Shown here piece by piece: positions 46,954 through 64,000 of a stretch of DNA of 64,000 nucleotides (positions within the stretch are counted from its first letter, which is position 1; each line of letters begins with the position of its first letter). The notes under the pieces are model-generated. The model saw nothing but the letters and a program-made list of their open reading frames with translations. It was not told where the DNA came from and ran no database searches. This stretch comes from Granulicella mallensis MP5ACTX8. Lineage in GTDB: Bacteria; Acidobacteriota; Terriglobia; Terriglobales; Acidobacteriaceae. The stretch is from the NCBI RefSeq assembly GCF_000178955.2, contig NC_016631.1, forward strand, positions 3,720,001-3,784,000, written 5' to 3'. The translations under genes and the position numbers were made by a program.

Positions 46954-49900
46954 TTAGTTAAGGGTGATCGGCAGACTGATGGAGTGAACCAGGGTGCCGG
47001 AGGTCGCAGTGATCTGCAGCGTGCTGCTTCCGGTGATCACCTGGGTAACAGGGGAGGAAGTGCTTCCACTGTCCTTTGCATCGCCGCTGTACACGGCCGT
47101 GATCGTATGCGCCCCCACAGCAAGGGTGGAACTCGCGAGCGTTGCCGTCCCGTTCATCACGGTCACTGACGATCCAAGCTCCGTGCTTCCGTCGTAGAAC
47201 TTAATCGTTCCTGTCGGATTGCTTGCAAGCGAGTTGAGTGTGGCTACCAGCGATACACTCTGACCGGAAGCTGTCTTGGTGTTGCTGGAGGTCAGCGACA
47301 ACAAAGTCGCCTGAGGTACAGGTGCGCTCGGACTTGAGCCACCACAACCGACAACCGGCAGAAGCACCGCCAGCAGAACCAGAAGAAATCCCGGACGGCG
47401 GCGTACCGCAGGCAGACAAAACAGAAGCAGCCCCGCGAGACTGGTAAGTTCAAGCACGCTCCCCGTGAATGCCGGCTTCATCGCTACCCTTGCACTGGTC
47501 ATTGGCGACGGCGCAGGAGTCGAGATCGAAACCGTAGCGGTTTGCGCGGTGCCAAACGTTACGCTCGAAGGATTGACGACACAGACCGCCCCTGCTGGGA
47601 CGCCTGTACCGCAAGCCAGTGTCACGCTGCCGGTGTAACCCAGCTCCGGAGTCAGCGACAACGTCGCCGCGCCAGGAGCCCCCGCCGTCAACTGCAAGCC
47701 GGCTTGTCCGCTGGTGAAGACGAAGTCCGGCGGGCTGACCACAACCATCGTGGAGGAGACGACAGCATTGAAGTTCGGATCGCCGGGATAGGTTGCGGTA
47801 ACGACATTTGTTCCGACAGGCAAGGTAAACCGTCCGCTATAGCCTTCAAGCAGACCATTGATCGGAAGCAGCTGGAAATTACCTAGCGGAGTAGCTGCTG
47901 CACCATTCACAGAATCGGTAAAAGTGATGGTCCCGGTAGGAGCCTGCTGCGCTCCGCCGGAGTTGATGACCAGACCCGCCGTTGTGTAGTTGAGACTCAA
48001 CTGTGTGTTCGGCAGGATGTAGCTTGCTCCCGCCGCGAAGGTTACCGCCGGAGTTAGCTTTGGAACAGTAAGCGTGATGTTGTCTTTCGCGGCGCTAGTG
48101 CTGCTCGCAAAGTTGTTGTCTCCCTCATACGTTGCGGACATCACAAAGGTTCCGGCACCGTCCATGTAGCAGGCACCTGTCGCCGTACCGTTGACAAGAT
48201 TGCCTCCGCATATGGCACCGGAACTGCCGGCCGGGTAGACAAGGACCAATCCTGAAGGCACGTTGGCGTTTTTACTTTGTGACTTCACAGTGAATACGAA
48301 GTTGGCGATCTGCCCTTGCTGCAAGGTTGCAGGCGTGGTCATCGTGAATGTGGTTGTCGTGGCCGCTCCCGTATTGCTGCCCACGTTGATCGTTGTGACT
48401 TTTGCGTAGGGACTATTAAGAGCCACACCCACATAATTCGTATCGCCACTATAGACAGCCTGAAGCGAATGGGACCCGGGGGTAAAGGTGTAGGGAATAT
48501 TGACCTGCGGCCCGCTATTGTTTGCTCCCATAACGATCGGCATCGGCTGGCTGATCGCCTGGCTGACCCCCTTGTATTCGTCAAAGATCTGCAATGTTCC
48601 AGTCGGTTGCGTCGTCCCCGAGACCCCGAGATAAGCCGTAATGCCATTTCCGGTTTGCACTAGTGTGGAACTCTGACCCTTGGCGACAACGACCGATACA
48701 GGACTGGATGTGCTCGGGTTGAAGCTGTTATCGCCGAGATACTGCAGCGTGATGGCGTGGTTTCCCACCGGCACAGTCCCTGACGAAAGAAGAACTCCCG
48801 CATCGAGTGTCAGGGTTGTAGATCCGAGGTTCGTGGTTCCATCCATCAGCACATTGACGGTTCCCGTCGGTATACCTTGTCCGGAAAGCCCCGCAACCGA
48901 TCCCTTGAAAAACAAAGCACTGCCTAAAAAGTTCGAGGTGGGGGTAGAGGGGACAAGAGCACCCGTATTGGGATCGATGATATCGACCGCAAGCATGGGC
49001 GTGCTGTCTTCAGGGGTGATGTTCAGGCTCGTTCCCGCCGATGTACTGGAAGCATACGTACCGTCTCCTGCATAACGAGCGGTGAGCGTATACGTGCCGC
49101 CGGGAAGATCCTTCACCTGTCCCGTCCACGTTCCATCCGAGCCCAGGGTGTACTGGTCGTTCGCACCGTACTTATCGGTGAGCAGCACGAAGTCTCCACC
49201 CGGAGTGCCTGAGGCAGACGTAACGGCCACCGACAGAGGGACCGCCGTGCCATGCTTGGCGGTTGTCGTCGTCGCCGTCAACTGGGTAGTCGTAGCCGTT
49301 CCGCCGGTGCCTGCCTTCCATCCCGCCACCAGGTTGGCGATGTTGACACTGCCCAATCCCGTCGCCAGATCGTAGCCCACACCTGCGGTAAAGTCCGCAG
49401 TATCGGTGCCATATCCCGGCAGCCCCGGCGCGCTGTTATTGCCTACGATTACGTCGTTGAAGATGCAGGTCACGGGCGCGGCCGGATCGGTGCGGGCACT
49501 CGAAGAACAGGAAGCATTCTGCTGCGCGAGGCTATACAAAGTCGGGTTCACAAGCCCCTGGAACGCGCCATTCTGCTGCTCGACAAGAGCCAGGATCGAA
49601 GCCATCACCGGAGATGAAGCCGACGTTCCGCCCACGAGGGACTCCCCTGTGAGCGAAGTGCCCGTGCTTGTCTGCGTATACGTACAGCTTCCCAGGAAGC
49701 AGATGATGTAGGGATCATCGACTCCGGAAGCATTGAGCGCGACATCCGGAATATCGCGAACTCCGTCTGCGGGTACGCCCGTGCCGGACTGCCATGAAGG
49801 CTTCGGATACCCAGCCGTGCACGTCACATTGCCGCTGTTGTCGACCGTACCGGTTGCGCAGTTACTGCGGCCACCACCACCGCCGGTGCTCTCGTAGTAC

Positions 49901-51390
49901 GTCTGTCCATAGGCACAGTTTCCTGAGCCAACACCCACCGGCAAGGTAGGATCGCAGCTCTGGTTCCACACCGCCTCGGGAATATATCCGAGCGCCGACG
50001 CGAATCCCGTGCTGTTGTTCGAGTCCCAATACTGGAAGGCAAGATCGCCCTCGGCAAACTGCGTTCCGCCCACGGCGAGGTTGTATGGCGTGGACGCAAT
50101 TCCATTGACCGAATCACCATCGATGTCGGGCGAGTTTCCATAGTCGGCATCGCAGATTCCCGCGCCGCCATCCCCCGAAGAGGCGAGGGCAGTAATGCCT
50201 TCAGCGGCTGCCTGCTCCCAGAGCGTGCTCCAGAATAAGTTGCCGGACGGCCCCTCGTCCTTCTCGCACGCGCCATAGCTGACGGTCATAATCGGGGACA
50301 CGACATTTTCGACGGCATAGGCTGCGGCGAGCGAGATGCCATCCGTCGTATCCGTGCTGCCGGCGATCACAAAGTTGACGGTTGCCTTGGGAGCAATGGC
50401 GCCAGCCCACTCCAGGTCCAGGCTCGACTCGATGGCATCGTTCAGGCTATTCAGTCCAGGATCGGGTCCGCTCACGATCATGTTGGGATCGTTGACCGGC
50501 AAAGCAAAGAGCTTGCGGAAGGTCTGGAGATCGCTCAGCACGATGTCCGAACGCCCAATCACGGCAATCGACACCCCGGTGCCATCAACTCCGGCCGGCA
50601 GCGTCGTCGCTCCGTAGATCTTGCTTACGTCGCTGGGTGACAAGGCATACTCGAAGTCACCATTGCCATCGGTAAAGGTCGTATCCCCTTTTGCCTTTAC
50701 AAACTTCCCGGCAGCATTCCTGACGACGTTTTGCAGGGTGGTGTGCAGCGGCTTCGAGGTGAAGTTATTGAGCGAGAGAACGCCGGACACGACGGGCGCG
50801 AGTGCCGCCGGAATTGAGATCGTCGTCGCATTCGCGATGTGATTTTCAGTACCGGCTGCAGTCTTGAGCTGATACTGGTGCATCGACGTACCGAAGGCCG
50901 ACTCGACGCTGGAGACACCGCCGGAAAATTCAATCCTCTGGCCGCTGCGGCTCACCGCAACCTGTGTAAATCCATGGCTCTGCAGCCAGGCCGCGACCTT
51001 GGCCACATCGCCTGGGGCAGGCGCAAAGCGCGCCGAGAAGGCTTCAGGAGTCAGCCACTGATGATATTGGGGCGTCCCCTTCTTTTGTTGGGCTGCTACC
51101 AAAGTATCAAGGTCCTTCTGCTGGGTCGCGGAACGCTTCAGGACAAGGACCATGCGGTTCATCTGCTGGGCCGGGGACAACACGCCCAGGTCGCTTGCTC
51201 GTTTCACAGTGGGCACTACGGAGTTGGGCAGGGTAATGCGTTGTGAATCATCAATCCGCTGCGTAAGCACCGCAGGAACAGGTGCGATAGCCGAAGCAGC
51301 AGGTGCCCCGGGTTGTTGAGCCACGGCGAAGGCTCCCAGCAGAAGACAGAGGGCAGCATTCCAGACGATACGACGAAGTCGAACAAGCAT
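46954..51390 (-). CDS. S53 (kumamolisin-type) protease with Ig-like repeats
   Basis: A 1478-residue exported serine-carboxyl protease. The ATG at 51390 has GGAGG four bases upstream. A signal peptide (VWNAALCLLLGAFAVAQ) and an activation prodomain (MVLVLKRS...YHQWLTPEAF) precede the catalytic domain with Glu321/Asp325 (IESSLDLEWAGA) and Ser590 (GGTSASSPVM). Several Ig-like repeats (YAGDGTYASSTS, YLGDNSFNPSTS) follow. Near the end come a membrane hairpin (SLAGLLLFCLPAV-RRR-PGFLLVLLAVLLPVV), Cys1349 in VVGCGGSS, another Ig repeat and a terminal TATSG strand. It digests proteins at acidic pH, outside the cell. Confidence 0.9.
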   Translation of the reverse strand: MLVRLRRIVWNAALCLLLGAFAVAQQPGAPAASAIAPVPAVLTQRIDDSQRITLPNSVVPTVKRASDLGVLSPAQQMNRMVLVLKRSATQQKDLDTLVAAQQKKGTPQYHQWLTPEAFSARFAPAPGDVAKVAAWLQSHGFTQVAVSRSGQRIEFSGGVSSVESAFGTSMHQYQLKTAAGTENHIANATTISIPAALAPVVSGVLSLNNFTSKPLHTTLQNVVRNAAGKFVKAKGDTTFTDGNGDFEYALSPSDVSKIYGATTLPAGVDGTGVSIAVIGRSDIVLSDLQTFRKLFALPVNDPNMIVSGPDPGLNSLNDAIESSLDLEWAGAIAPKATVNFVIAGSTDTTDGISLAAAYAVENVVSPIMTVSYGACEKDEGPSGNLFWSTLWEQAAAEGITALASSGDGGAGICDADYGNSPDIDGDSVNGIASTPYNLAVGGTQFAEGDLAFQYWDSNNSTGFASALGYIPEAVWNQSCDPTLPVGVGSGNCAYGQTYYESTGGGGGRSNCATGTVDNSGNVTCTAGYPKPSWQSGTGVPADGVRDIPDVALNASGVDDPYIICFLGSCTYTQTSTGTSLTGESLVGGTSASSPVMASILALVEQQNGAFQGLVNPTLYSLAQQNASCSSSARTDPAAPVTCIFNDVIVGNNSAPGLPGYGTDTADFTAGVGYDLATGLGSVNIANLVAGWKAGTGGTATTTQLTATTTTAKHGTAVPLSVAVTSASGTPGGDFVLLTDKYGANDQYTLGSDGTWTGQVKDLPGGTYTLTARYAGDGTYASSTSAGTSLNITPEDSTPMLAVDIIDPNTGALVPSTPTSNFLGSALFFKGSVAGLSGQGIPTGTVNVLMDGTTNLGSTTLTLDAGVLLSSGTVPVGNHAITLQYLGDNSFNPSTSSPVSVVVAKGQSSTLVQTGNGITAYLGVSGTTQPTGTLQIFDEYKGVSQAISQPMPIVMGANNSGPQVNIPYTFTPGSHSLQAVYSGDTNYVGVALNSPYAKVTTINVGSNTGAATTTTFTMTTPATLQQGQIANFVFTVKSQSKNANVPSGLVLVYPAGSSGAICGGNLVNGTATGACYMDGAGTFVMSATYEGDNNFASSTSAAKDNITLTVPKLTPAVTFAAGASYILPNTQLSLNYTTAGLVINSGGAQQAPTGTITFTDSVNGAAATPLGNFQLLPINGLLEGYSGRFTLPVGTNVVTATYPGDPNFNAVVSSTMVVVSPPDFVFTSGQAGLQLTAGAPGAATLSLTPELGYTGSVTLACGTGVPAGAVCVVNPSSVTFGTAQTATVSISTPAPSPMTSARVAMKPAFTGSVLELTSLAGLLLFCLPAVRRRPGFLLVLLAVLLPVVGCGGSSPSAPVPQATLLSLTSSNTKTASGQSVSLVATLNSLASNPTGTIKFYDGSTELGSSVTVMNGTATLASSTLAVGAHTITAVYSGDAKDSGSTSSPVTQVITGSSTLQITATSGTLVHSISLPITLN

Positions 51391-51793
51391 AAAGCCTCCA
51401 GAAGGTAGTGAAGCGGCAAAATCCAAATAGCTAGATCAAGACAACGGGCGGCGAACGCAACCTCAGTGCATCGGGCGGCAGATAGACCGATATCGCCAAT
51501 CCACCCCATCGACGCCACGGTCATGCGCTGGCGACGGCGACTCCGAGATACACCGGAGCGCCGTGGCGGCAACAGAGGCGACACCTGTTCTGCGCTTTGA
51601 AGAGAGCGAATCTATCGCCTCTCCAAGCCCAAATGTGAAGGACATATGAAGAATGTAAGGGGAGTCGTGAAAACTCGTTTATCGGAGAAATATACTTTTA
51701 ACATCGTGCCGTAAGTTGTGTTGCATGAGCTACTTGAGACACAATAAGCCGCGCCGCGACCGCTCTTTCAGCTCGCTGGTGTAGAGTTTTGAC
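51391..51793. other. Divergent intergenic region, no recognised element
   Basis: This 403-nt gap separates the protease and the CadC-TPR regulator. It must hold both promoters. A TATACT at 51691-51696 is a possible -10 on the plus strand, without a good -35. No palindrome of the window's repeat families and no small ORF with a ribosome-binding site was seen. Confidence 0.5.
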
Positions 51794-54523: not shown

Positions 54524-55498
54524 CTAAAAAACAGGCGAACTAACATGTTCGTTCGATCGAATCTGCTGGCTCTTCAGTTCCCTGCCTAACGATTCCAGGT
54601 CGCGCTCCGCATGGGATTGCCGCAGATACAAATCGAGCTCCTGGTAGCGGCGGGAGATCTCTTCATCGAAGGCAAGCGGGTGCGGACCATAGGCCCGAGG
54701 CAGCCGGCGAAGGACCTCGGTGCAGGCCTGCTCCACGAGATGTCGAACGATGAGTGCCCGGCTATGAGCCTCACCGACATCGCAGGGCTTCTCGTCGATC
54801 TCTCTGCCCGCCAGATCAAGATAGGACCTAAGTCCCCAGATAGAGGCGTTCATCGCTCCCAGGTGCGCCAGGGTATGGGAGTCATCCCGTGACTGCTGCA
54901 TGGCGTAGTCCACGAGCCCCGCAGCGCCTCCGGCCCAGCACGCTGCAGGACCACAGGCCCCATGCCAGAATCCCGGACGAGAGAGATACCACCCGGCCTC
55001 CCTAACCACTTCATCCGGCAGGATGGAGATCTCTTTGAAAGTAGCCGTCGCAGTCCCCGTTTGCTGGAAAGCATTCGACTTCCAACCCGAGGTATTGAAT
55101 TCAAAGCCCTCCACCTCCCTGCGAAGATCGACATCCACGAGAAATCGCTCTGGCTTCGAAACAGTGACAAGAGCGCGATCCACCAGCCCCGCTCCACTAC
55201 AGAACATCTTTGTTCCCACAAGAGAATAACGACCACTTCGTGGAATGAGACTCAGTTCTTGCCCTGGCTTCTCGGACGCCCATACCCCATAGATCGCACC
55301 CGGCTCAGGCTTGAGTCCGGCCTCCGCCAGAATGGAGACGGCATCCCAATGGGCTTCGGCCAAACGAGCCAGGGACAGGTCCTCCCGCCCAATCTCCATC
55401 AACTGCCTGTGACGCCCGGGAGTATCACCCGCACCCGGCAATGGCATAGCGATCTCTGTAAGGGAGCGGAGTCTTTGGAGCAGAGCTTCGCTGGTCAT
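54524..55498 (-). CDS. Acyl-CoA-dehydrogenase-like flavoprotein
   Basis: A 324-residue protein, shorter than the ~380 residues usual for acyl-CoA dehydrogenases. Residues ~60-160 resemble the central beta domain (YSLVGTKMFCSGAGLVDRALVTV; FNTSGWKSNAFQQTGTATATF) and the C-terminal half is helical (AACWAGGAAGLVDYAMQQS). The usual catalytic Glu is not obvious. The start overlaps the glycosyltransferase stop (ATGA). It probably oxidises or reduces an intermediate made by the cassette. Family assignment is good, activity uncertain. Confidence 0.78.
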   Translation of the reverse strand: MTSEALLQRLRSLTEIAMPLPGAGDTPGRHRQLMEIGREDLSLARLAEAHWDAVSILAEAGLKPEPGAIYGVWASEKPGQELSLIPRSGRYSLVGTKMFCSGAGLVDRALVTVSKPERFLVDVDLRREVEGFEFNTSGWKSNAFQQTGTATATFKEISILPDEVVREAGWYLSRPGFWHGACGPAACWAGGAAGLVDYAMQQSRDDSHTLAHLGAMNASIWGLRSYLDLAGREIDEKPCDVGEAHSRALIVRHLVEQACTEVLRRLPRAYGPHPLAFDEEISRRYQELDLYLRQSHAERDLESLGRELKSQQIRSNEHVSSPVF

Positions 55499-56208
55499 GC
55501 CGCCACCTCATCATGCGCTGCAAGTGCCTGGGCAAATCCATAAGGCGCGCGCCCCACCTTCCTGCCGCTGGTCAGAACTTTCATCCGGCCGACCGAAGCC
55601 CGCCTGGACCCCGCAATCCGCAGTCGATTCCACAGATCATGATCTTCGGCGGTTTCAAGATGCCGCCATCCGCCCACTCTTAGATACGCATCTGCGCGCA
55701 CTCCGAGATTTGCGCCGTGCACATGGGGATGCGTGCCATCGGAAAAGATTCGGTAGCTCGCTCGGAACAGGTCATCCACACCTGCACGATGTTCCTGGAA
55801 GGTGTCGACATCGACGGTGCCCGCAAAGGCCTCTACGTTAGCTGCCGCCAGTTCCCATTGATCCCTCAGCCACGTCTCAGGAACGCTGCAGTCAGCATCG
55901 GTATTTGCGAGCCAGCAGCAGTTTCGCGGACCGCGATAACGCTTAAGAGCTACGGCAGCGGCCAGCGCTCGGGCTTTCCCCACCGCGCCTGCATCGGTGC
56001 GGATGGCGACTCCGCGACCACGCAGCACGCATTCCGCGATCTCAAAGGTCCTATCGGTGGAGCTATCCACGGCAACGACTACATCCCAGCTCACAGACAG
56101 CGGCAACAAGGAACATGCCGCAAAGATGGATCGAAGACACCGAGGCAATAGCTCCTCTTCATTGCGCGCAGGAATCAACACGCTCATATGTTGGAGAGCG
56201 CCATTCAT
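55495..56208 (-). CDS. Family 2 glycosyltransferase
   Basis: A 237-residue GT-A transferase counted from the ATG at 56208, which overlaps the upstream stop (ATGA); an ATG four codons earlier is possible. The N-terminal MSVLIPARNEEELLPRCLRSI and VVVAVDSSTDRT bind the nucleotide sugar; the metal-binding NTDADCSVP and ETAEDHDLWNRL near residue 200 follow. It has no membrane helices. It lies third in the four-gene overlapping cassette and likely adds a sugar to a small acceptor or lipid. Substrate unknown. Confidence 0.88.
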   Translation of the reverse strand: MNGALQHMSVLIPARNEEELLPRCLRSIFAACSLLPLSVSWDVVVAVDSSTDRTFEIAECVLRGRGVAIRTDAGAVGKARALAAAVALKRYRGPRNCCWLANTDADCSVPETWLRDQWELAAANVEAFAGTVDVDTFQEHRAGVDDLFRASYRIFSDGTHPHVHGANLGVRADAYLRVGGWRHLETAEDHDLWNRLRIAGSRRASVGRMKVLTSGRKVGRAPYGFAQALAAHDEVAA

Positions 56209-56780
56209 ATCCGTTTCCACCTATCCAGCCGAAACCCAGCATGATGTTCCTCATGTTCATGAGCTAGCCCCTTAAGGGATGCCAGGATCTCATGCACGCG
56301 GTCACCACTCAGCACATGATCTTCCGAGGCTCCCAACCAGTGCGCGGCAACCAGAACACCGGACATACTCATTTGGGCAACAATGCTCTTAGCCAGACCT
56401 TCCAACTCTTCTTCCTCGAAGTAATAACCAATCTCGCTGAGCACTACAAGATCGAAGGAACCTATCGGAATGAGGTCCGGTAACGCTCCACACTCAATAT
56501 CGACATTCAACAAGCCACGACAGCGCTCTCGTGCATATCGAACGGCTGTCGGCGAAATATCCATAGCATCGACATATTGACAAACCGATGCCAGCCGCTC
56601 TGTCAGCAGACCGATAGAACAACCCGGCTCGAAGCCATGCCGATAGCGCCGATGATTCAGCGAACGAAAGATCGCGTCATACCGGCATTGCTCGTAGCTA
56701 CTGGATGCAAACGACCAGGGGTCGGCATTCTTCAGATATTTCTGCTCAAAAAAATCCCGGCTTGTTGTCTCTGTATTCAT
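56205..56780 (-). CDS. SAM-dependent methyltransferase, NodS-like
   Basis: A 191-residue class I methyltransferase. The start FFEQKYLKNADPWSFASSSYEQCRYD is characteristic of the NodS type, which N-methylates chitooligosaccharides. The SAM loop is GFEPGCSIGLLTERLA, followed by VDAMDISPTAV and DLVVLSEIGYYF. It begins with ATGA overlapping the deacetylase stop and ends overlapping the glycosyltransferase. Together with a deacetylase and glycosyltransferase, N-methylation of a freed amino sugar is a plausible role, by inference. Confidence 0.87.
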   Translation of the reverse strand: MNTETTSRDFFEQKYLKNADPWSFASSSYEQCRYDAIFRSLNHRRYRHGFEPGCSIGLLTERLASVCQYVDAMDISPTAVRYARERCRGLLNVDIECGALPDLIPIGSFDLVVLSEIGYYFEEEELEGLAKSIVAQMSMSGVLVAAHWLGASEDHVLSGDRVHEILASLKGLAHEHEEHHAGFRLDRWKRI

Positions 56781-57466
56781 CCGATGCTGAAAACCTCAAA
56801 GGAACGCCTCGCGGGAGCTAACAACGACTCCGGCAAGATAGGATCGCCTGATTCACGAGTTAGCTGAGACCTGTGGCAGAGGAGCGCCTCGGTCTTGGCG
56901 AGCAGCGACTCATCGCTCAAGGAAAAGGAGCGTAGAGACATCTCCTGCAGTAGCTCTGTCGTTCCCCTGTGCCATGTCCAGAAAAAATAGGAGGTAAGAC
57001 TCGCACCGGTCCGTCTTGCCACCTCTTCGGCAGCGCGGCCACAAGCCTCATGGTCCGGGTGAAAGTCCCCTCGCCAGGGAGCAACGATAGAAGTAGAGCG
57101 AGAAACCAGTGGCATTAACTGCTCTACCAACAGTCGCTCCTGAGAACCTACATCACTATCCGGCAACTTGAGTCGAACAATATTCTCAGCGGCAACGCCG
57201 AGCCGCTTTAGAGCGTCTCTCTGTTCGCCGGCGCGTAGGTCTCCCAGCCCCGGAAAATCGGGATATGCATTTTCGCCGTCAGTTACTGCGGCAACGATTA
57301 CCTCAAGACCTTTCGCGCGCTGTGCAGCGATCAATCCCCCAACGGCTAATGTCTCGTCATCGGGATGGGGAGCGATGACTAAAAGAGATGCCGCAGGCGG
57401 CTGCCAGGATGCCAAGGCATCCAGACAATTGATCCACTCATGTTCTTCTACTATCGGGACAATCAT
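56777..57466 (-). CDS. PIG-L-family deacetylase
   Basis: A 229-residue zinc-dependent deacetylase. The metal motif HPDDE is in LLVIAPHPDDETLAVGG, with a later FHPDHEACG supplying the third ligand and the acid/base Asp/His. PIG-L (MshB/BshB-like) enzymes remove N-acetyl groups from GlcNAc-type glycosides and some antibiotics. It is the first gene of the cassette, starting at ATG 57466. Target unknown. Confidence 0.9.
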   Translation of the reverse strand: MIVPIVEEHEWINCLDALASWQPPAASLLVIAPHPDDETLAVGGLIAAQRAKGLEVIVAAVTDGENAYPDFPGLGDLRAGEQRDALKRLGVAAENIVRLKLPDSDVGSQERLLVEQLMPLVSRSTSIVAPWRGDFHPDHEACGRAAEEVARRTGASLTSYFFWTWHRGTTELLQEMSLRSFSLSDESLLAKTEALLCHRSQLTRESGDPILPESLLAPARRSFEVFSIG

Positions 57467-57635: not shown

Positions 57636-57779
57636 ATGCTCATCATTTTGCTCATCTTGCTTTTGGTTTTTGGTTTTGGCGGCTATCGCATGGGACCTGG
57701 TCTGGGTTACTACGGAGGTGGTGGCATCAGTTTGATTCTGTTGATTGTCATCATCCTTCTCCTGCTAAAAGTTTTTTAG
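57636..57779 (+). CDS. DUF3309-family small membrane protein
   Basis: A 47-residue hydrophobic protein: LIILLILLLVFGFGG, a Tyr/Gly-rich centre (YRMGPGLGYYGGGG) and ISLILLIVIILLLLKVF. This matches DUF3309, a widespread two-helix protein of unknown function, often stress-induced. AGGGAGAA precedes the ATG by seven bases. It is divergent from the PIG-L gene and followed by an intrinsic terminator. Functional role unknown. Confidence 0.88.
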   Translation: MLIILLILLLVFGFGGYRMGPGLGYYGGGGISLILLIVIILLLLKVF

Positions 57780-57847: not shown

Positions 57848-60800
57848 TTAGTTAGTCGACGCGGCTGTTACTACGATATTTGCCAGGACATTGTGAGTAA
57901 TTACTCCGTCCGTTGCAGTGATCACGGCCTTGTAGGTCCCGGCCGGAACAAGGGTTGGGCTGGGTGGAGCAGTAGTAACCGGCGGGCTGCTGCCTCCACT
58001 GCAGCCTCCCATCACGCCCAGGAGTGTCACCGATAGAACAAAGCCAAGCGTCACCGTCCATCTGCGCTTCCGTGATGGAACCCCAAACAGGAGAAGGCAG
58101 GCAAAGGCTGCGATTCCACTGCCTCCAGCTAACCATCTTCTGGCTGGCTGCGCCAATTGAGACGTAGTAGCAGGAGGAATCGAGGTTACCAATTGGACAG
58201 AGGCTGTGGCTTGCCCCGTAGTAGCAACGGCCACCGTACCCGGCACGGTGCAGAGCGGCACAACTGTGCCACTACCGGTAACAGCACAGGCCAGAGTTAC
58301 CTTTCCGCTGAACTGATTATTGGAACTCAGCGTCAGGTTTACGGATGCAGGAGAACCAGCAGCTACTGTAACCGTTGGATTGTTATTGAGGATCGAAAAA
58401 TCCCCCTGCAGGTTATTGAACATCAGCACAGGACTGCTTGAAGTGCTGTAGACCTTATCGCCGAGATAGATCACATAGAGCTGATTCGAGCCGGCGGAAG
58501 AGTTCGCAGCGGTAAAGGTGATGGTCGCCGTCGATGTGCCACCACTCCCCGGAACAAGCGTCACTTGAGGGCTGTTGCCGGAGCTGAAGAGCTGGCCATC
58601 TGAGACGAAGTACACTCCGCCGGTAGGCGCGACAGTAGAACCGGTGACCTTCGCTGTCAGCGTAATCAAAGTCCCAGGGACGATGGTTGTAAGGTCTACA
58701 GGATCGCTGGTGACCGCCGTGGTTGTGGGCAACAAGGTTGAGGCGCCAGTGACCATGACTGTTTGAGGCGAGGCCGTTGAGCTGCTCCAGTTACTGTCTC
58801 CCGCGTAACTTACTCCCAGGCTGAAGGTACCTGCAGCCAAGCTGGTAAACGTTTCAGTAGCAAACCCTTCGCCATTCGATGTCGCCGAAAGCGGCACGGT
58901 CTGGGTGAGACTGCCCAAAGTGAACGTCACGTTGCCTGTAGGAGATAACCCACTATTTAGCCCGGTTACCTGGGCCTGGACCACTAACGTACCACCCGCA
59001 GAAAAAGAGGTGGAGTTAGCGACCGTGCCAATCTGAGTAAGTCCCTTGGTTACGGTGAAGGTCAGTGGACCTTTAGGGTTGCTGGTGGTTGTTGCGTTGT
59101 AACTGGGATCACCGGAGTAGCTGAAGGTAAGACTATGCTGCCCCAGGGTCCATGTTCCCGAGGAAAGAACAGTCGCGCCATTCGCGTTGAGAGGCAGTGT
59201 CGCAATCGCGGTGCCGTTGTCCTGCACCGTAACCGTCCCGGTGGCGATGCCATTCACGCTGCCGGCGCTGCCGCCAATTTGCAGATCAATGCCCACGATG
59301 GTGCCATAGGTTACCGACGGTCCAAGCGGTGTCTGCAAACCATAGGGACTCGTCTGGTTCTGAAAGGCGCCCGCCAGAATGATGCTGCTCTCCGGTTTCA
59401 CCGTAATCGAAACGGGCGCGGACTGACTGGCTGCGAAGGTCGCATCTCCGCTGTAGCTAGCGTGCATGTTGTAAGTACCGCCGGGCAGGAAGCTAACGCT
59501 GGCAGCGCCGGCCCCCGTGCTGTCGAGCGTCATGGAAAGCTGTCCGCGGTTGGAGGGCAGCGGGGTATCGGCCACAACGGCGACGGCTCCCGTGGGAGTT
59601 CCTGAACCTGAATTCGCGACGACGTTCGCAAGTAAGTTCATCGTCTGGCCGTGGGTGATGGTTGTGGGTGTCGCCTGGAACGCAATACTGGTAGCGCTCA
59701 GACTAACGCTATTCCAGTTTGCGACCAGCGCATTGGCATCCATACTGCCGAGACCCGAGGCAAGGTCATAGCCCACTGTCGCCGGCCACTCCTGCAGAGA
59801 AGCCCCCGTGCCGGTCTTATCTTTTGAGCATTGCAGGCCGCCCTGCACACTGCACGGAACGTTGTTGGAACCAACCGTAACGTCGTGAAAGATCGACGGC
59901 ATCTTCGCGGCAAGGGGATAAAGAACAGCGTTCGCCTGTCCCTGCGGACCATACTTCTGATTGACAAGTGCCATGATGCCTGCAAAGGCAGGGGCAGAGG
60001 CAGAGGTTCCACCTACCGAGGTATAGAAGACAGATTTCGTATTGGGGTCAGTATTGATGCAATCGCCAGTAGCGGCACAGATAGCATAAAAGCTATTGTT
60101 CGCGGCAAAGGCGGCAAACAGTGAGACGTCCGGAATATCGCGCACCTTATCATCGGGAACGCCAGGGCCCGCCTGCCACGCGGGTTTTGCATAACCTCCT
60201 AGTCCAAGGCACAGGCCCTGCGAGGTAAGAGCATTTGTTCCAGCCAGAGGCCCGCCGACGACCGCACAGGTACTCTGTCCACCACTACCACCCACAATGG
60301 AAACGCCAGTAGTCGGATTAATATTCAAGCCATAAGAGCTGTTATTCCAGGGCTGTTCAGGGAGCGGATGAAGGAGTGAGCCGAGACTTGCATCGTTCGT
60401 TGCGCTCCAGTCCTGCGCGCTGCTTGCTCCACCGGTAGCGTAATCGTTGTAGTAGAAGTCGGTGCCGCCCACCGCGATGTTCCATGGAGTAGAAGCCAGT
60501 CCATTGATCTGCAAACCGTCTGCGGCATCGAACGGATCGTTCTGATTGTCGCAACCGGCGGAGCTGTTATCGCCCGAGGACACCATCACCGTTTGGCCCT
60601 GGGCAGCAGCCTGCTCCCACAAAGAATTGACGTAGGCCATGTAACCCGCGCCTTCTTCGGCTTCACACGTACCGAAGCTCAGGCTGAGAACGGTGGCGGC
60701 ATCGTCCTCCACGGCGCGCAGCATGGCAAGATCAAGGCCATCGTTGTAGTCGGTACTGGCAGCGATATACAGGTTGACGGTGGCTTGCGGAGCCACAGCG

Positions 60801-61765
60801 CCAGCCATCTCCACATCCAGATAGGCTTCGGTCAGGGCAGGAGTATAAAGCCCAGGATCGTTGCCGTCGATGATGATGTGAGGAAGATTGGGAGCGGCGG
60901 AGTTCGTATCCAGGGCAAAGAGCTTTCGGTAAGCCTGGACAAGTCCCAAATCGATATTGGACTCATTGATGATGCCGATGGTTTGGCCGGCACCATTCGT
61001 ACCGGCGCTGTAAAGCGGAGTGACGTTGTACTGAGTCGCGAAATCCTTCGGCCCAACGGCGTAATAGGCTCCGCCCGCGCCGTCGGGAGTCGTCCACTGT
61101 GGAATCACTTTATGCGAGGTCGCATCGTACTTCGCTCGGCCCAGCGTCTGCGCTTGCGATTTGGCGTGAAAGTCATTCAAGGACCCAACCCCCGCGATCA
61201 CCGGCGCGAGCGCAGAGGGAATCTGCGGATTGGTGGCATTTGCATGGTGTACTTCCCCGTTGACGCTGTAGGTATGAAGCGATGTATGGAAGGCGTTCGC
61301 GACCTGGCCGGTAGTTCCGGAGAACTCGATGGCCGTTCGACCTGCACCGACCTTATCGATACTGAAACCATGAGACTGCAGCCAGGACTCAACCTGCGCG
61401 AGATCTGCGTCAGCCGGCCCATACTTCTGCCCGAACTGCGCCGGTGTAAGCCACTTGTGATAGTTCGGACTTCCCTTCGTCTGAACGTCCGCAAGGAACT
61501 GATGCAGAGCATTCTCCTGCGCATCTGGACGCTTCAGGGTGAGGATCAACCGGCCTGTCGGCGTCGAGTCCGGAACCGCACCCTGATCGTAGATCGCTTT
61601 CGCGAGAGGATGGACGTTGTTCTGCAGCGCAACTACTTCAGCGTCGTTCACTCTTTGATTGATCTGAGGAGCAGCCTGCGCACTGGCGGCATTCACTGAA
61701 AAGGCCAGTAGCGCAGCGGGCAATACGGACGAGAGAGGGGACAACATACGGAAGTTCAGTTTCAT
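57848..61765 (-). CDS. S53 (kumamolisin-type) protease with Ig-like repeats, second copy
   Basis: A 1305-residue exported protease; the ATG at 61765 follows GGAGC by six bases. The signal peptide (SVLPAALLAFSVNAASAQA), prodomain (YHKWLTPAQFGQKYG), catalytic Glu/Asp (TEAYLDVEMAGA) and Ser (VGGTSASAPAFAGIMAL) match the first copy, though the two proteins differ widely in sequence. Ig-like repeats (YSGDATFAASQS, YSGDPSYNATTT) follow. The end has a membrane hairpin (SGIAAFACLLLFGV-PSRKRR-WTVTLGFVLSVTLLGV), Cys in MGGCSGGSS and a GTYKAVITATDG tail. Confidence 0.9.
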   Translation of the reverse strand: MKLNFRMLSPLSSVLPAALLAFSVNAASAQAAPQINQRVNDAEVVALQNNVHPLAKAIYDQGAVPDSTPTGRLILTLKRPDAQENALHQFLADVQTKGSPNYHKWLTPAQFGQKYGPADADLAQVESWLQSHGFSIDKVGAGRTAIEFSGTTGQVANAFHTSLHTYSVNGEVHHANATNPQIPSALAPVIAGVGSLNDFHAKSQAQTLGRAKYDATSHKVIPQWTTPDGAGGAYYAVGPKDFATQYNVTPLYSAGTNGAGQTIGIINESNIDLGLVQAYRKLFALDTNSAAPNLPHIIIDGNDPGLYTPALTEAYLDVEMAGAVAPQATVNLYIAASTDYNDGLDLAMLRAVEDDAATVLSLSFGTCEAEEGAGYMAYVNSLWEQAAAQGQTVMVSSGDNSSAGCDNQNDPFDAADGLQINGLASTPWNIAVGGTDFYYNDYATGGASSAQDWSATNDASLGSLLHPLPEQPWNNSSYGLNINPTTGVSIVGGSGGQSTCAVVGGPLAGTNALTSQGLCLGLGGYAKPAWQAGPGVPDDKVRDIPDVSLFAAFAANNSFYAICAATGDCINTDPNTKSVFYTSVGGTSASAPAFAGIMALVNQKYGPQGQANAVLYPLAAKMPSIFHDVTVGSNNVPCSVQGGLQCSKDKTGTGASLQEWPATVGYDLASGLGSMDANALVANWNSVSLSATSIAFQATPTTITHGQTMNLLANVVANSGSGTPTGAVAVVADTPLPSNRGQLSMTLDSTGAGAASVSFLPGGTYNMHASYSGDATFAASQSAPVSITVKPESSIILAGAFQNQTSPYGLQTPLGPSVTYGTIVGIDLQIGGSAGSVNGIATGTVTVQDNGTAIATLPLNANGATVLSSGTWTLGQHSLTFSYSGDPSYNATTTSNPKGPLTFTVTKGLTQIGTVANSTSFSAGGTLVVQAQVTGLNSGLSPTGNVTFTLGSLTQTVPLSATSNGEGFATETFTSLAAGTFSLGVSYAGDSNWSSSTASPQTVMVTGASTLLPTTTAVTSDPVDLTTIVPGTLITLTAKVTGSTVAPTGGVYFVSDGQLFSSGNSPQVTLVPGSGGTSTATITFTAANSSAGSNQLYVIYLGDKVYSTSSSPVLMFNNLQGDFSILNNNPTVTVAAGSPASVNLTLSSNNQFSGKVTLACAVTGSGTVVPLCTVPGTVAVATTGQATASVQLVTSIPPATTSQLAQPARRWLAGGSGIAAFACLLLFGVPSRKRRWTVTLGFVLSVTLLGVMGGCSGGSSPPVTTAPPSPTLVPAGTYKAVITATDGVITHNVLANIVVTAASTN

Positions 61766-61847
61766 CGGAAGCTCCTGAAAAGTGGTGCAGGACAAGACGA
61801 GCGGCTCGGCTTAGAGACCTCGCATCCTCGTACGTTTCTGTAGCGCT

Positions 61848-64000
61848 TTATTGCACGACGATCGTCAGGTTGAGAGCGGCGGACTGACTGCCATCCGTCG
61901 CCGTCACGATGACCGTGCTTGTACCGGAGGGAGTCGCATTGTTTACGGGAGCGCTGGTCCCACTACCGCCGGAACAAGCCGTCATCAACCCGCCCATGCA
62001 GAACAGCACCGCCAGCATCAGCATCTTGCGCCACCGGAGATATCCTCTCCTTCTGCCAAAGAGCCCTGCGACCGCAAAGAGTCCAGGCAACGTCAGCGCA
62101 TACATCAGGCGCGTGCCCATTCCATTTGCAGGCTGAACGAGGCTCGCACTGCCGCCGCCGGTCGTAGTGATCTGGAGAGCAGACGTGCCCGAGCCGCTCA
62201 AAGCGCCAAAGCTGCAGGCTGCTCCCTTGGGCAGACCGGAGCAGGCGAACGAGACGGAAGCGTCAGGAAAGTTGAGGACCTTCAACATCGTCGATCCATT
62301 TCCACCTGCGCTGGAGATCATCACGGTGTCGGGTGTCGCCACAATGGCGGCAAGAGTCGGAGCCGTTACGGTCAGCGTGGTTGTCGCTACATTTCCGGCG
62401 GTGTAGTTGCCATCACCGGAGTACGTAGCCGTAATACCGTAGGAGCCGGTTGCTGTAGGAGCCTGGCCTGGCAGCGTCGCCGTGCCATTCGACAGTTGAA
62501 CCGGCGCACCCAGAGCACTTCCGCTGGCAGCGAACTGCACGGTGCCCGTCGGCGTGGGCACATTGGCGAGACCGGTTACGGTCGCCGTCAGCGATGTGCT
62601 CTTCCCCAAAACAATGCTGGAGGGACTTGCACTGACAGACACCGTGGGAGGAACCAGCGGAGCCGGAACGACAACGATGCTGAGAGCGGCGGTCGCGGTC
62701 AAAGGAGTGCTCTCCGAGTCCTTCACCTGTACGGTGAAAGAACTCGTCCCGCTCTGCGCCGGGGCTCCGGAGATAACGCCGGTGCCGGCCGAAAGAGCGA
62801 GTCCGGGCGGCAGACTGCCGGCAGTGATGCTCCAGGTATAGGGCGACGTTCCTCCAAGCAAACCAATGGTCTGCGCGTAGGCCGCCCTGACCATGCCGCC
62901 CGGCAGGTTGGTCGTCGTAATCTGCGGAGGAATCGTTCCGACCACGATCGTAGCCGTAGCCGTCTCGCTGCCACCGCAGGTAAACGAATAGGTCAGAATG
63001 CCCAGGGCAAGCGTAGGCTTCACCGTCGCACTACCGGTGGTCGCAACAGAGCCCGTCCAGGAGTTGTCGGAGCTATAGGCGAAGCAGACCTTCGCATTGG
63101 TGGAGAATGCGTTCGTGACCGACCACGTAAGGGTAAGAGAATCGCCGGGATTCACATTCGCAGTGCCTGGAGTAAGAGTTATGGCGGGTGGCAGCGTGGT
63201 CAGAATCTGGTAGATGTTTCCCTGGTAATGGGGTCCACCAGACGAAGCCACTCCATAGAGATTGCCGTCTGTCGATTCAAAGGGCTGCGTCTGTACATTG
63301 AAACCATCTGCCGCGTTCGAGCCAAAGTCGTACACATCGGCTTTCGTGCCGGTGGGGCTGATCTGCATCACCTGTCCGGAGCTATGAGATCCGCCTTCAG
63401 AACCGGCGATGTAAAAGTTGCCGTCGCCGCCAAGGAAGGGCCGTCCGTGGAGCGGATTGTTTCCGTCGCCGACCTGGAAGTCATAGATGTTATGGAGCGT
63501 CGAGTTCACACCGTTCGGCACGATCTGGTAGAAGATGCCGGTTCCATTTCCCTGCGTACCGCACTCGAAGGTAAAGCCGTAGAGGTTCCCATCCGGCCCC
63601 TGAACCGGAGAGCCGGTTGGCCAGCAGCTATCTTCAACGCCCTGTCCGTCGTTATCGAAGTTGTGGAAGACATGGAAGTTTGAACCGTCGGGAGCGATAA
63701 CGAAGGCCGTGCCATAGCCATAGCCCAAAGGGCTGCCGGAGACATAGGGACCGCCAAACTCAGCCGTGCCGTAAAGGTTTCCATCGGAAGCCAGAACGAG
63801 GCCTCCAACGGGGCTATTGCCATCCGCCCCGGTAAACGAATGGAGCGTTGTAAAGGTCTGGGTCAGGTAGTTGAAGGACCAGATGCTGCCTAGATTGTTG
63901 CCCGTCGGGTCGTCGACGTTGGCTGTGCCATAGATCGTCCCTTTCCCATCGTCGATCAGTTCTCCAAAACCGGCCGTCCCTCCATATTGGAAGGAGTGGA
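61848..64000 (-). CDS. GloVer-repeat and Ig-like-domain secreted protein, 5' part outside window
   Basis: A large partial gene, open to the window edge. The visible N-terminal part has GloVer repeats (GTIYGTANVDDPTG; GLVLASDGNLYGTAEFGG; PDGNLYGFTFECGTQG), propeller-like units named from G-L-V motifs. Ig-like and putative He-PIG domains follow (NLPGGMVRAAYAQTIGLLGG; SLPPGLALSAGTGVISG), then a YSGDGNYTAGN repeat. The end carries a hairpin (LTLPGLFAVAGLFG-RRR-GYLRWRKMLMLAVLFCMGGLM), Cys in TACSGGSGT and STVIVTATDG. It lies 82 nt upstream of the second protease and may share its operon. Confidence 0.85.
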   Translation of the reverse strand, partial: HSFQYGGTAGFGELIDDGKGTIYGTANVDDPTGNNLGSIWSFNYLTQTFTTLHSFTGADGNSPVGGLVLASDGNLYGTAEFGGPYVSGSPLGYGYGTAFVIAPDGSNFHVFHNFDNDGQGVEDSCWPTGSPVQGPDGNLYGFTFECGTQGNGTGIFYQIVPNGVNSTLHNIYDFQVGDGNNPLHGRPFLGGDGNFYIAGSEGGSHSSGQVMQISPTGTKADVYDFGSNAADGFNVQTQPFESTDGNLYGVASSGGPHYQGNIYQILTTLPPAITLTPGTANVNPGDSLTLTWSVTNAFSTNAKVCFAYSSDNSWTGSVATTGSATVKPTLALGILTYSFTCGGSETATATIVVGTIPPQITTTNLPGGMVRAAYAQTIGLLGGTSPYTWSITAGSLPPGLALSAGTGVISGAPAQSGTSSFTVQVKDSESTPLTATAALSIVVVPAPLVPPTVSVSASPSSIVLGKSTSLTATVTGLANVPTPTGTVQFAASGSALGAPVQLSNGTATLPGQAPTATGSYGITATYSGDGNYTAGNVATTTLTVTAPTLAAIVATPDTVMISSAGGNGSTMLKVLNFPDASVSFACSGLPKGAACSFGALSGSGTSALQITTTGGGSASLVQPANGMGTRLMYALTLPGLFAVAGLFGRRRGYLRWRKMLMLAVLFCMGGLMTACSGGSGTSAPVNNATPSGTSTVIVTATDGSQSAALNLTIVVQ

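Follow-up and report, generated by a model that had tools for sequence, protein, structure and literature searches.

A catalogued C-terminal anchoring tail of Acidobacteriota appears to be an Ig-like domain split by a membrane hairpin that bears a lipoprotein-like signal

On the minus strand of the window (the whole stretch of 64,000 nucleotides analysed here, from Granulicella mallensis MP5ACTX8), the gene at 57848-61795 encodes a secreted protease-like protein of 1315 aa with a Pro-kumamolisin activation domain and Big_3_5 Ig domains (domain scans). Its C-terminus raises the question of how such a protein might be anchored by a tail that continues beyond its last hydrophobic helix. An earlier note had taken this tail for an undescribed sorting or anchoring module, and reading of the window sequence confirmed the stated features at 57851-58126; the unit also has an upstream half (58187-58405), which lay outside these coordinates. 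From the N- to the C-terminal side, it consists of a first helix (GIAAFACLLLFGVP), the basic turn SRKRR, a second helix (WTVTLGFVLSVTLLGVMGG), a Cys preceded by lipobox-like letters (GVMGGC), SGGSS, a Pro/Thr linker and the segment PAGTYKAVITATDG. Eighteen residues separate the TATDG segment GTYKAVITATDG from the stop codon.

Numbered from the beginning of the upstream half, tail residues 97-110 form transmembrane helix 1 (58076-58117; helical at 97-107 in the AlphaFold model), which is followed by the basic turn (58061-58075), presumably cytoplasmic according to the positive-inside rule. Helix 2 (58004-58060; helical at 117-131 in the model) spans 19 residues, from the one after the last Arg to the one before the Cys, and, judged from its sequence, is similar to a type II signal peptide h-region. 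The invariant Cys is residue 135 (58001-58003) and precedes a linker, rich in Gly/Ser and then in Pro/Thr (57950-58000; both from the sequence and the tail alignment). The hairpin and linker are flanked by two segments similar to Ig-like domains. The first (58187-58405, residues 1-73) would correspond to strands A-E, with 26.9 bits to an HMM of hairpin-free Ig domains (model positions 4-65) and strands over residues 2-73 of the AlphaFold model; the second (57851-57949) would supply strands F and G, with 21.8 bits to the same HMM (positions 54-94). The latter contains the TATDG segment, which is better read as a piece of strand F than as a sorting motif of its own, the five preceding strands of the Ig domain lying upstream of the hairpin. 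Directly downstream of the gene, the plus strand encodes a very short Gly-rich two-helix protein (57636-57779), in our view reminiscent of DUF3309. Four adjoining minus-strand genes (54524-57466) were assigned by eye to an acyl-CoA dehydrogenase-like protein, a glycosyltransferase, a methyltransferase and a PIG-L deacetylase.

The same order was found, as had been claimed, in all three window proteins at the expected places. A second protease-like protein (46954-51426, minus strand; sequence and domain scans) displays the N-half of a split Ig-like domain at 47518-47730 (AlphaFold strands 2-70, block pLDDT 92-98), a membrane hairpin with the basic turn RRR at 47347-47469 (sequence, AlphaFold) and a lipobox-like Cys (VVGC) at 47344-47346. 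To the order described earlier it adds a complete extra Big_3_5 Ig domain at 47053-47313 (protein residues 1378-1465, model residues 140-233), placed between the Cys and the strands F-G that would complete the split domain (46957-47049; AlphaFold, structural alignment). The third, a GloVer-repeat protein (61848-63728, minus strand; sequence and domain scan), carries an N-half at 62148-62366, a hairpin at 61977-62105 (sequence, hairpin profile), a lipobox-like Cys (MTAC) at 61974-61976 and strands F-G at 61851-61931. Its two halves scored 18.3 and 13.4 bits, respectively, with an earlier and partly contaminated Ig HMM, and their limits were set by eye.

The module is not undescribed, as the earlier note had it, since an NCBIfam model, NF058595 ('invert_tail', "lipo-invert putative C-terminal anchoring domain"-containing protein), already covers it. 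The proteins at 57848-61795 and 61848-63728 scored 41.7 and 67.4 bits, both above the curated cut-off of 37 bits; the one with the extra domain (46954-51426) reached 22.5 bits, below this value. NF058595 has 113 positions, starts at strand E and covers E, the hairpin and F-G, and no Ig domain is named in its short description. As a counter it is impure: within the genome of the window, its cut-off was also passed by the summed repeats of an uninterrupted Ig protein (L016, L017, L021), and protein scans left two of six tail proteins of this genome unreported (L140, L141). A literature search under the names of the module found no paper naming it, and searches on related anchoring topics contained nothing about it among the matches listed. 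The split Ig domain is the element added here to a catalogued, real and widespread anchoring module.

Sequence and predicted models both support an Ig-like domain opened at the loop between strands E and F, with A-E preceding the membrane hairpin and F-G following it. Halves were taken from 103 tails, i.e. the 107 described below minus four long ones. They were scored with an HMM of 20 hairpin-free Ig copies, some of which derive from tail-bearing proteins themselves. It replaced a first, contaminated HMM which had included tails among its 37 copies; at least four of the 17 copies dropped were apparently good uninterrupted ones. N halves exceeded 10 bits in 101 out of 103 tails (median model positions 3-69) and C halves in 98 out of 103 (65-94), while this score was reached by none of 1030 shuffled N halves and by two of 1030 shuffled C halves. 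N halves stopped at model positions 63-73 (5th to 95th percentile) and C halves began at 54-70. Rejoined halves, scored with the earlier contaminated HMM, yielded one spanning match in 45 of the 103 tails and did better than either half in 22. A paralogue from the same genome (L143, with a Pro-kumamolisin domain) ends in a hairpin-free Ig domain of the same type; its alignment to the tail of 57848-61795 left gaps of 30 and 39 residues where the hairpin lies.

Predicted structures pointed in the same direction. The AlphaFold model of this tail (103 rows, alignment A1) displayed block pLDDT values of 92-98 for residues 1-70 and 95-98 for 151-180, with 81 over the final five residues, against 51-71 for 81-140. 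Structural alignment placed 98 residues of a contiguous sialidase Ig domain (404-502) on model residues 1-180 (Z 12.3, rmsd 2.1) and 103 residues of Vpr 594-701 on the same model (Z 13.0). The rows of these alignments are end points only, and the hairpin is considered to be skipped because of the aligned lengths. Foldseek searches gave no match reaching E 0.001. In the tail of 46954-51426 (48 rows), block pLDDT was 92-98 for residues 1-70 and 88-98 for 231-258, as compared with 63-80 for the inserted domain. The three top alignment rows fell within 1-258 (95-99 residues, Z 11.4-11.8) and other rows on the inserted Ig domain (140-233) alone. Because the alignments to 1-258 and to 140-233 separate the two domains, strands F-G appear, in the model, to complete the first Ig domain whatever intervenes, even a whole additional one. 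Four of the 18 tails of this genome (46954-51426, L014, L018 and L024) have such a complete Big_3_5 domain inserted after the Cys, ahead of F-G. The pTM values of the two AlphaFold models were 0.64 and 0.62, and their hairpins were of low confidence.

Conservation was measured on tails recovered with a 43-tail profile run on the six frames of 119 out of 127 loci (eight LspA loci being excluded). This gave 114 matches, from which seven named non-tails or duplicates were removed to leave 107. The earlier suggestion of a conserved Cys and basic turn was borne out: the Cys was present in 107 out of 107 tails, immediately preceded by G, A or S in all of them (38 expected), and a net charge of at least +3 was found in 106 (13 residues ending at the last K/R). 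These counts are not fully independent because the tails were collected with profiles containing the Cys and F-G, so that conservation was partly selected, because, where more than one Cys was available, the script favoured those after G/A/S/N and the hairpin finder rewarded basic residues, and because some rows came from near-identical genomes. The last K/R and the Cys were separated by 16-20 residues in 98 of the 107 tails. A relaxed lipobox ([LVIMFA]x[GAS]C) was found in 85 of them, more than in any of 1000 shuffles of helix 2 (28 +/- 4.4, maximum 43). The strict form ([LVI][ASTVI][GAS]C) was displayed by 42, and position -3 lay outside [LVIMFA] in 22. Following the Cys were 35-53 residues (5th to 95th percentile; range 34-146); none of the 107 tails had Asp directly after the Cys, and eight contained a further Cys downstream. 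A conserved Pro before helix 1 in the 103-row alignment A1 was set aside, as gaps are frequent at that place and the alignment itself may account for it.

The likeness of helix 2 and its Cys to a lipoprotein signal, also proposed earlier, held outside the collected tails as well. Weak NF058595 matches in the same genome (L020, L023, L025 and L028-L030) read like ordinary N-terminal lipoproteins, as did nine of the 14 weaker loci read from the hairpin-profile search (L178-L184, L186 and L187, L186 being the gene of L028). The N-termini of the tail proteins themselves were mostly type I signal-like by eye.

A simpler reading would make the tail an uncut two-helix anchor, in which the hairpin fixes the Ig domain to the inner membrane and the Cys is left unprocessed or serves otherwise, for instance in a disulfide. 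The hairpin alone would suffice for this and a split Ig domain works without a cut; moreover, no dedicated enzyme was found among the four families tested (LspA, Lgt, exosortase and rhomboid). Such an anchor would have no need for a Cys in 107 of 107 tails, for G, A or S before it in every one or for a lipobox far above shuffled expectation. The Ig domain commonly has a Cys pair of its own (alignment column 40 in 86 and column 52 in 88 of 103 rows), which would leave the lipobox Cys partnerless, an extra downstream Cys occurring in the eight tails mentioned above. We consider the uncut anchor rather unlikely.

The distribution of the tail was assessed at three levels. Reading of 30 NF058595 matches in the genome of the window (6.24 Mb, one contig) gave 18 tails (L001-L015, L018, L019 and L024), located at the C-termini of eight kinds of secreted protein. 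The expectation of an anchoring module shared by many unrelated secreted proteins, rather than one orthologous family, was thereby upheld. Eight of the 18 proteins contained a Pro-kumamolisin domain. The other ten comprised pairs of NHL propellers, FG-GAP proteins and GloVer-repeat proteins, and single representatives of a glycosyl hydrolase 53 with ricin lectin, an endonuclease/phosphatase with lamin-tail domain, a TIGR03118 protein and a lamin-tail/choice-of-anchor X protein. Hosts included proteins of two 'choice-of-anchor' families besides the TIGR03118 (PEPCTERM_chp_1) protein, in keeping with a role as an anchor. The latter (L137, at 4832800-4834750 of the same genome) bears this tail, suggesting that anchors were swapped between lineages.

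Within the family of the window, represented by one genome per genus, 39 out of 41 genomes exceeded the NF058595 cut-off, and in a survey of 297 genomes of the phylum, 53 matched at E 1e-5 and 36 exceeded it; these tallies are not pure, as uninterrupted Ig repeats can pass the cut-off. Thirty-one of the 53 belonged to the window's family. The remaining 22 displayed one or two matches each, mostly weak, these being lower bounds since at most 14 candidates were scored per genome. Two genomes from one other family contained strong single matches which read as tails (L041 and L045) and whose occurrence so far from the window's family possibly results from horizontal transfer. One query against named genomes listed at least 17 loci among its matches, partial ones included, whose names we take to be all from Acidobacteriota; the range of the module is not bounded thereby. 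A profile restricted to the hairpin (built from 42 of the 107 tails, nine of them from the window's genome) gave 16 near-full-length matches in this genome at E < 0.003, all of them tails with F-G. It missed L012, detected L014 at E 1.05 and produced two weak long matches at 3806419 and 753224. A degenerate DNA pattern for Cys-x-Gly-Gly was rejected as a detector, with 87 and 76 matches per strand against 107 and 123 in the reversed control.

Confinement of the tail to genomes sharing a dedicated processing enzyme, as the earlier note had anticipated, found no support across four enzyme families. A dedicated LspA was sought and not found, every one of the 20 sampled family genomes giving a single match. 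Lgt was detected in 39 of the 41 family genomes (33 out of 33 good ones) in one to four copies, and tails also occurred in one-copy genomes. Exosortase was found in 22 of the 41 genomes, as compared with tails in 39 of the same 41. Rhomboids were encountered in all 41, tail-free ones included, so that their distribution is uninformative; neither exosortase nor rhomboid distribution points to an enzyme. The genome of the window contains four LGT-family (PF01790) homologues versus a single LspA match, and many family genomes contain two or three LGT homologues. Its three exosortase homologues lie at 243670, 2973677 and 5898552 in frames of 545-591 aa, the other 40 family genomes displaying none to two matches.

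These distributions bear on a second alternative, namely a sorting tag of the PEP-CTERM or MYXO-CTERM type, in which a dedicated sortase would cut at helix 1 and the remainder would be discarded. Helix 1 followed by an Arg cluster does resemble the end of such tags, one host belongs to the PEPCTERM_chp_1 family and exosortase homologues are present in the same genome; both tail-free genomes among the 41 also lacked exosortase, two being too few to judge. Tails were nevertheless found in 17 of the 19 family genomes without an exosortase match, and NCBIfam scans of nine tail proteins gave no PEP-CTERM, MYXO-CTERM or GlyGly-CTERM match. The segment after helix 1 is conserved, which would not be expected for a discard, and a tag of this type seems very improbable.

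The explanation we favour, and consider probable, is that of a C-terminal anchor made of an Ig domain split by a hairpin together with an internal type II signal, in which Lgt would lipidate the Cys and LspA would cut at it. The protein would be exported by its N-terminal Sec signal until helix 1 halted transfer, leaving the Arg/Lys turn in the cytoplasm (a topology expected from the positive-inside rule). Helix 2 would then return outwards, allowing F-G to join A-E and complete the Ig fold on the outer face. Turn, helix 2 and Cys would act as an internal type II signal peptide: by analogy with lipoprotein biology, ordinary Lgt would add diacylglycerol to the Cys and ordinary LspA would cut before it, breaking the chain in the E-F loop. 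The putative product would be two chains joined by the Ig sandwich, one comprising the body, A-E and the remaining stub of the hairpin, the other a short lipopeptide, mostly some 35-55 residues long, with F-G, so that the protein would be tied to the membrane through the hairpin plus the lipid. The usual substrates of LspA are N-terminal signals. Here, helix 2, as its putative substrate, comes after another helix, which was counted against cutting.

An LspA cut would leave helices 1 and 2 on the body, and the lipid would therefore add little unless a further step took place. This leads to a third alternative, overlapping the favoured one, in which LspA cuts at the Cys and a second protease acts downstream of strand E, ahead of helix 1; held to the lipopeptide only by the Ig domain as by a clamp, the body would proceed to the outer membrane as a surface lipoprotein. 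Retention of F-G even where a whole Ig domain stands between them and the Cys (four of the 18 tails, one of them modelled) is consistent with it, as are the host protein kinds, presumably extracellular or on the surface, and the 0 out of 107 tails with Asp after the Cys. In E. coli, Asp at this position retains lipoproteins in the inner membrane. In alignment A1, however, no conserved motif for such a second cut was established, and rhomboids were present in 41 out of 41 family genomes, including the two tail-free ones. We hold this two-cut route to be possible and on the doubtful side. Tentative to the same degree is the wider picture in which a lipidated two-strand peptide, generated through an internal signal by ordinary enzymes and completed by a further cut that frees the body from the hairpin, would hold large secreted enzymes and propellers non-covalently at the surface through their last Ig domain.

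The split-Ig reading offers a concrete mechanism needing only general lipoprotein enzymes. If true, it would account for the conserved segment after the Cys and for the retention of many large secreted proteins by acidobacteria, and surface display would gain from the module a natural anchor in the form of a two-part beta sandwich.

Among known systems, the C-terminal anchoring signals described in the available part of PMC11980579 are tags cut by dedicated proteases. MYXO-CTERM, cut by myxosortase, displays the order Cys, helix, Arg and protein end in that part, and shares with the present tail an invariant Cys, a helix and an Arg cluster near the C-terminus, predicted lipidation and surface anchoring (PMC11980579). 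The tail is reversed and doubled in comparison, with helix, Arg, helix, Cys, two beta strands and then the end. PEP-CTERM and GlyGly-CTERM share a C-terminal helix with a basic cluster on many secreted proteins but, as far as described in the same part of this source, are devoid of a second helix and of a Cys with a folded segment after it (PMC11980579); exosortase, the partner of PEP-CTERM, does not track this tail. The earlier note had set the tail apart from LPXTG, PEP-CTERM, GlyGly-CTERM and MYXO-CTERM signals, which end shortly after a helix; at least 34 residues follow the Cys in all 107 tails. Instead of the motif, single helix, basic residues and end that define PEP-, MYXO- and GlyGly-CTERM, a second helix, a Cys and these at least 34 residues follow the basic cluster. 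The basic n-region, hydrophobic stretch, lipobox, Cys and Gly/Ser linker are all shared with the lipoprotein signals of Lgt and LspA, which are N-terminal, whereas the signal of the tail lies near the C-terminus behind another helix. GAIN and SEA domains are cut in a loop yet held together by their strands, and in donor-strand pilins a beta fold is completed by a separate chain. Those systems are self-cut or made of two subunits, in contrast to the present tail, which carries a membrane hairpin and a lipoprotein-like signal in the loop.
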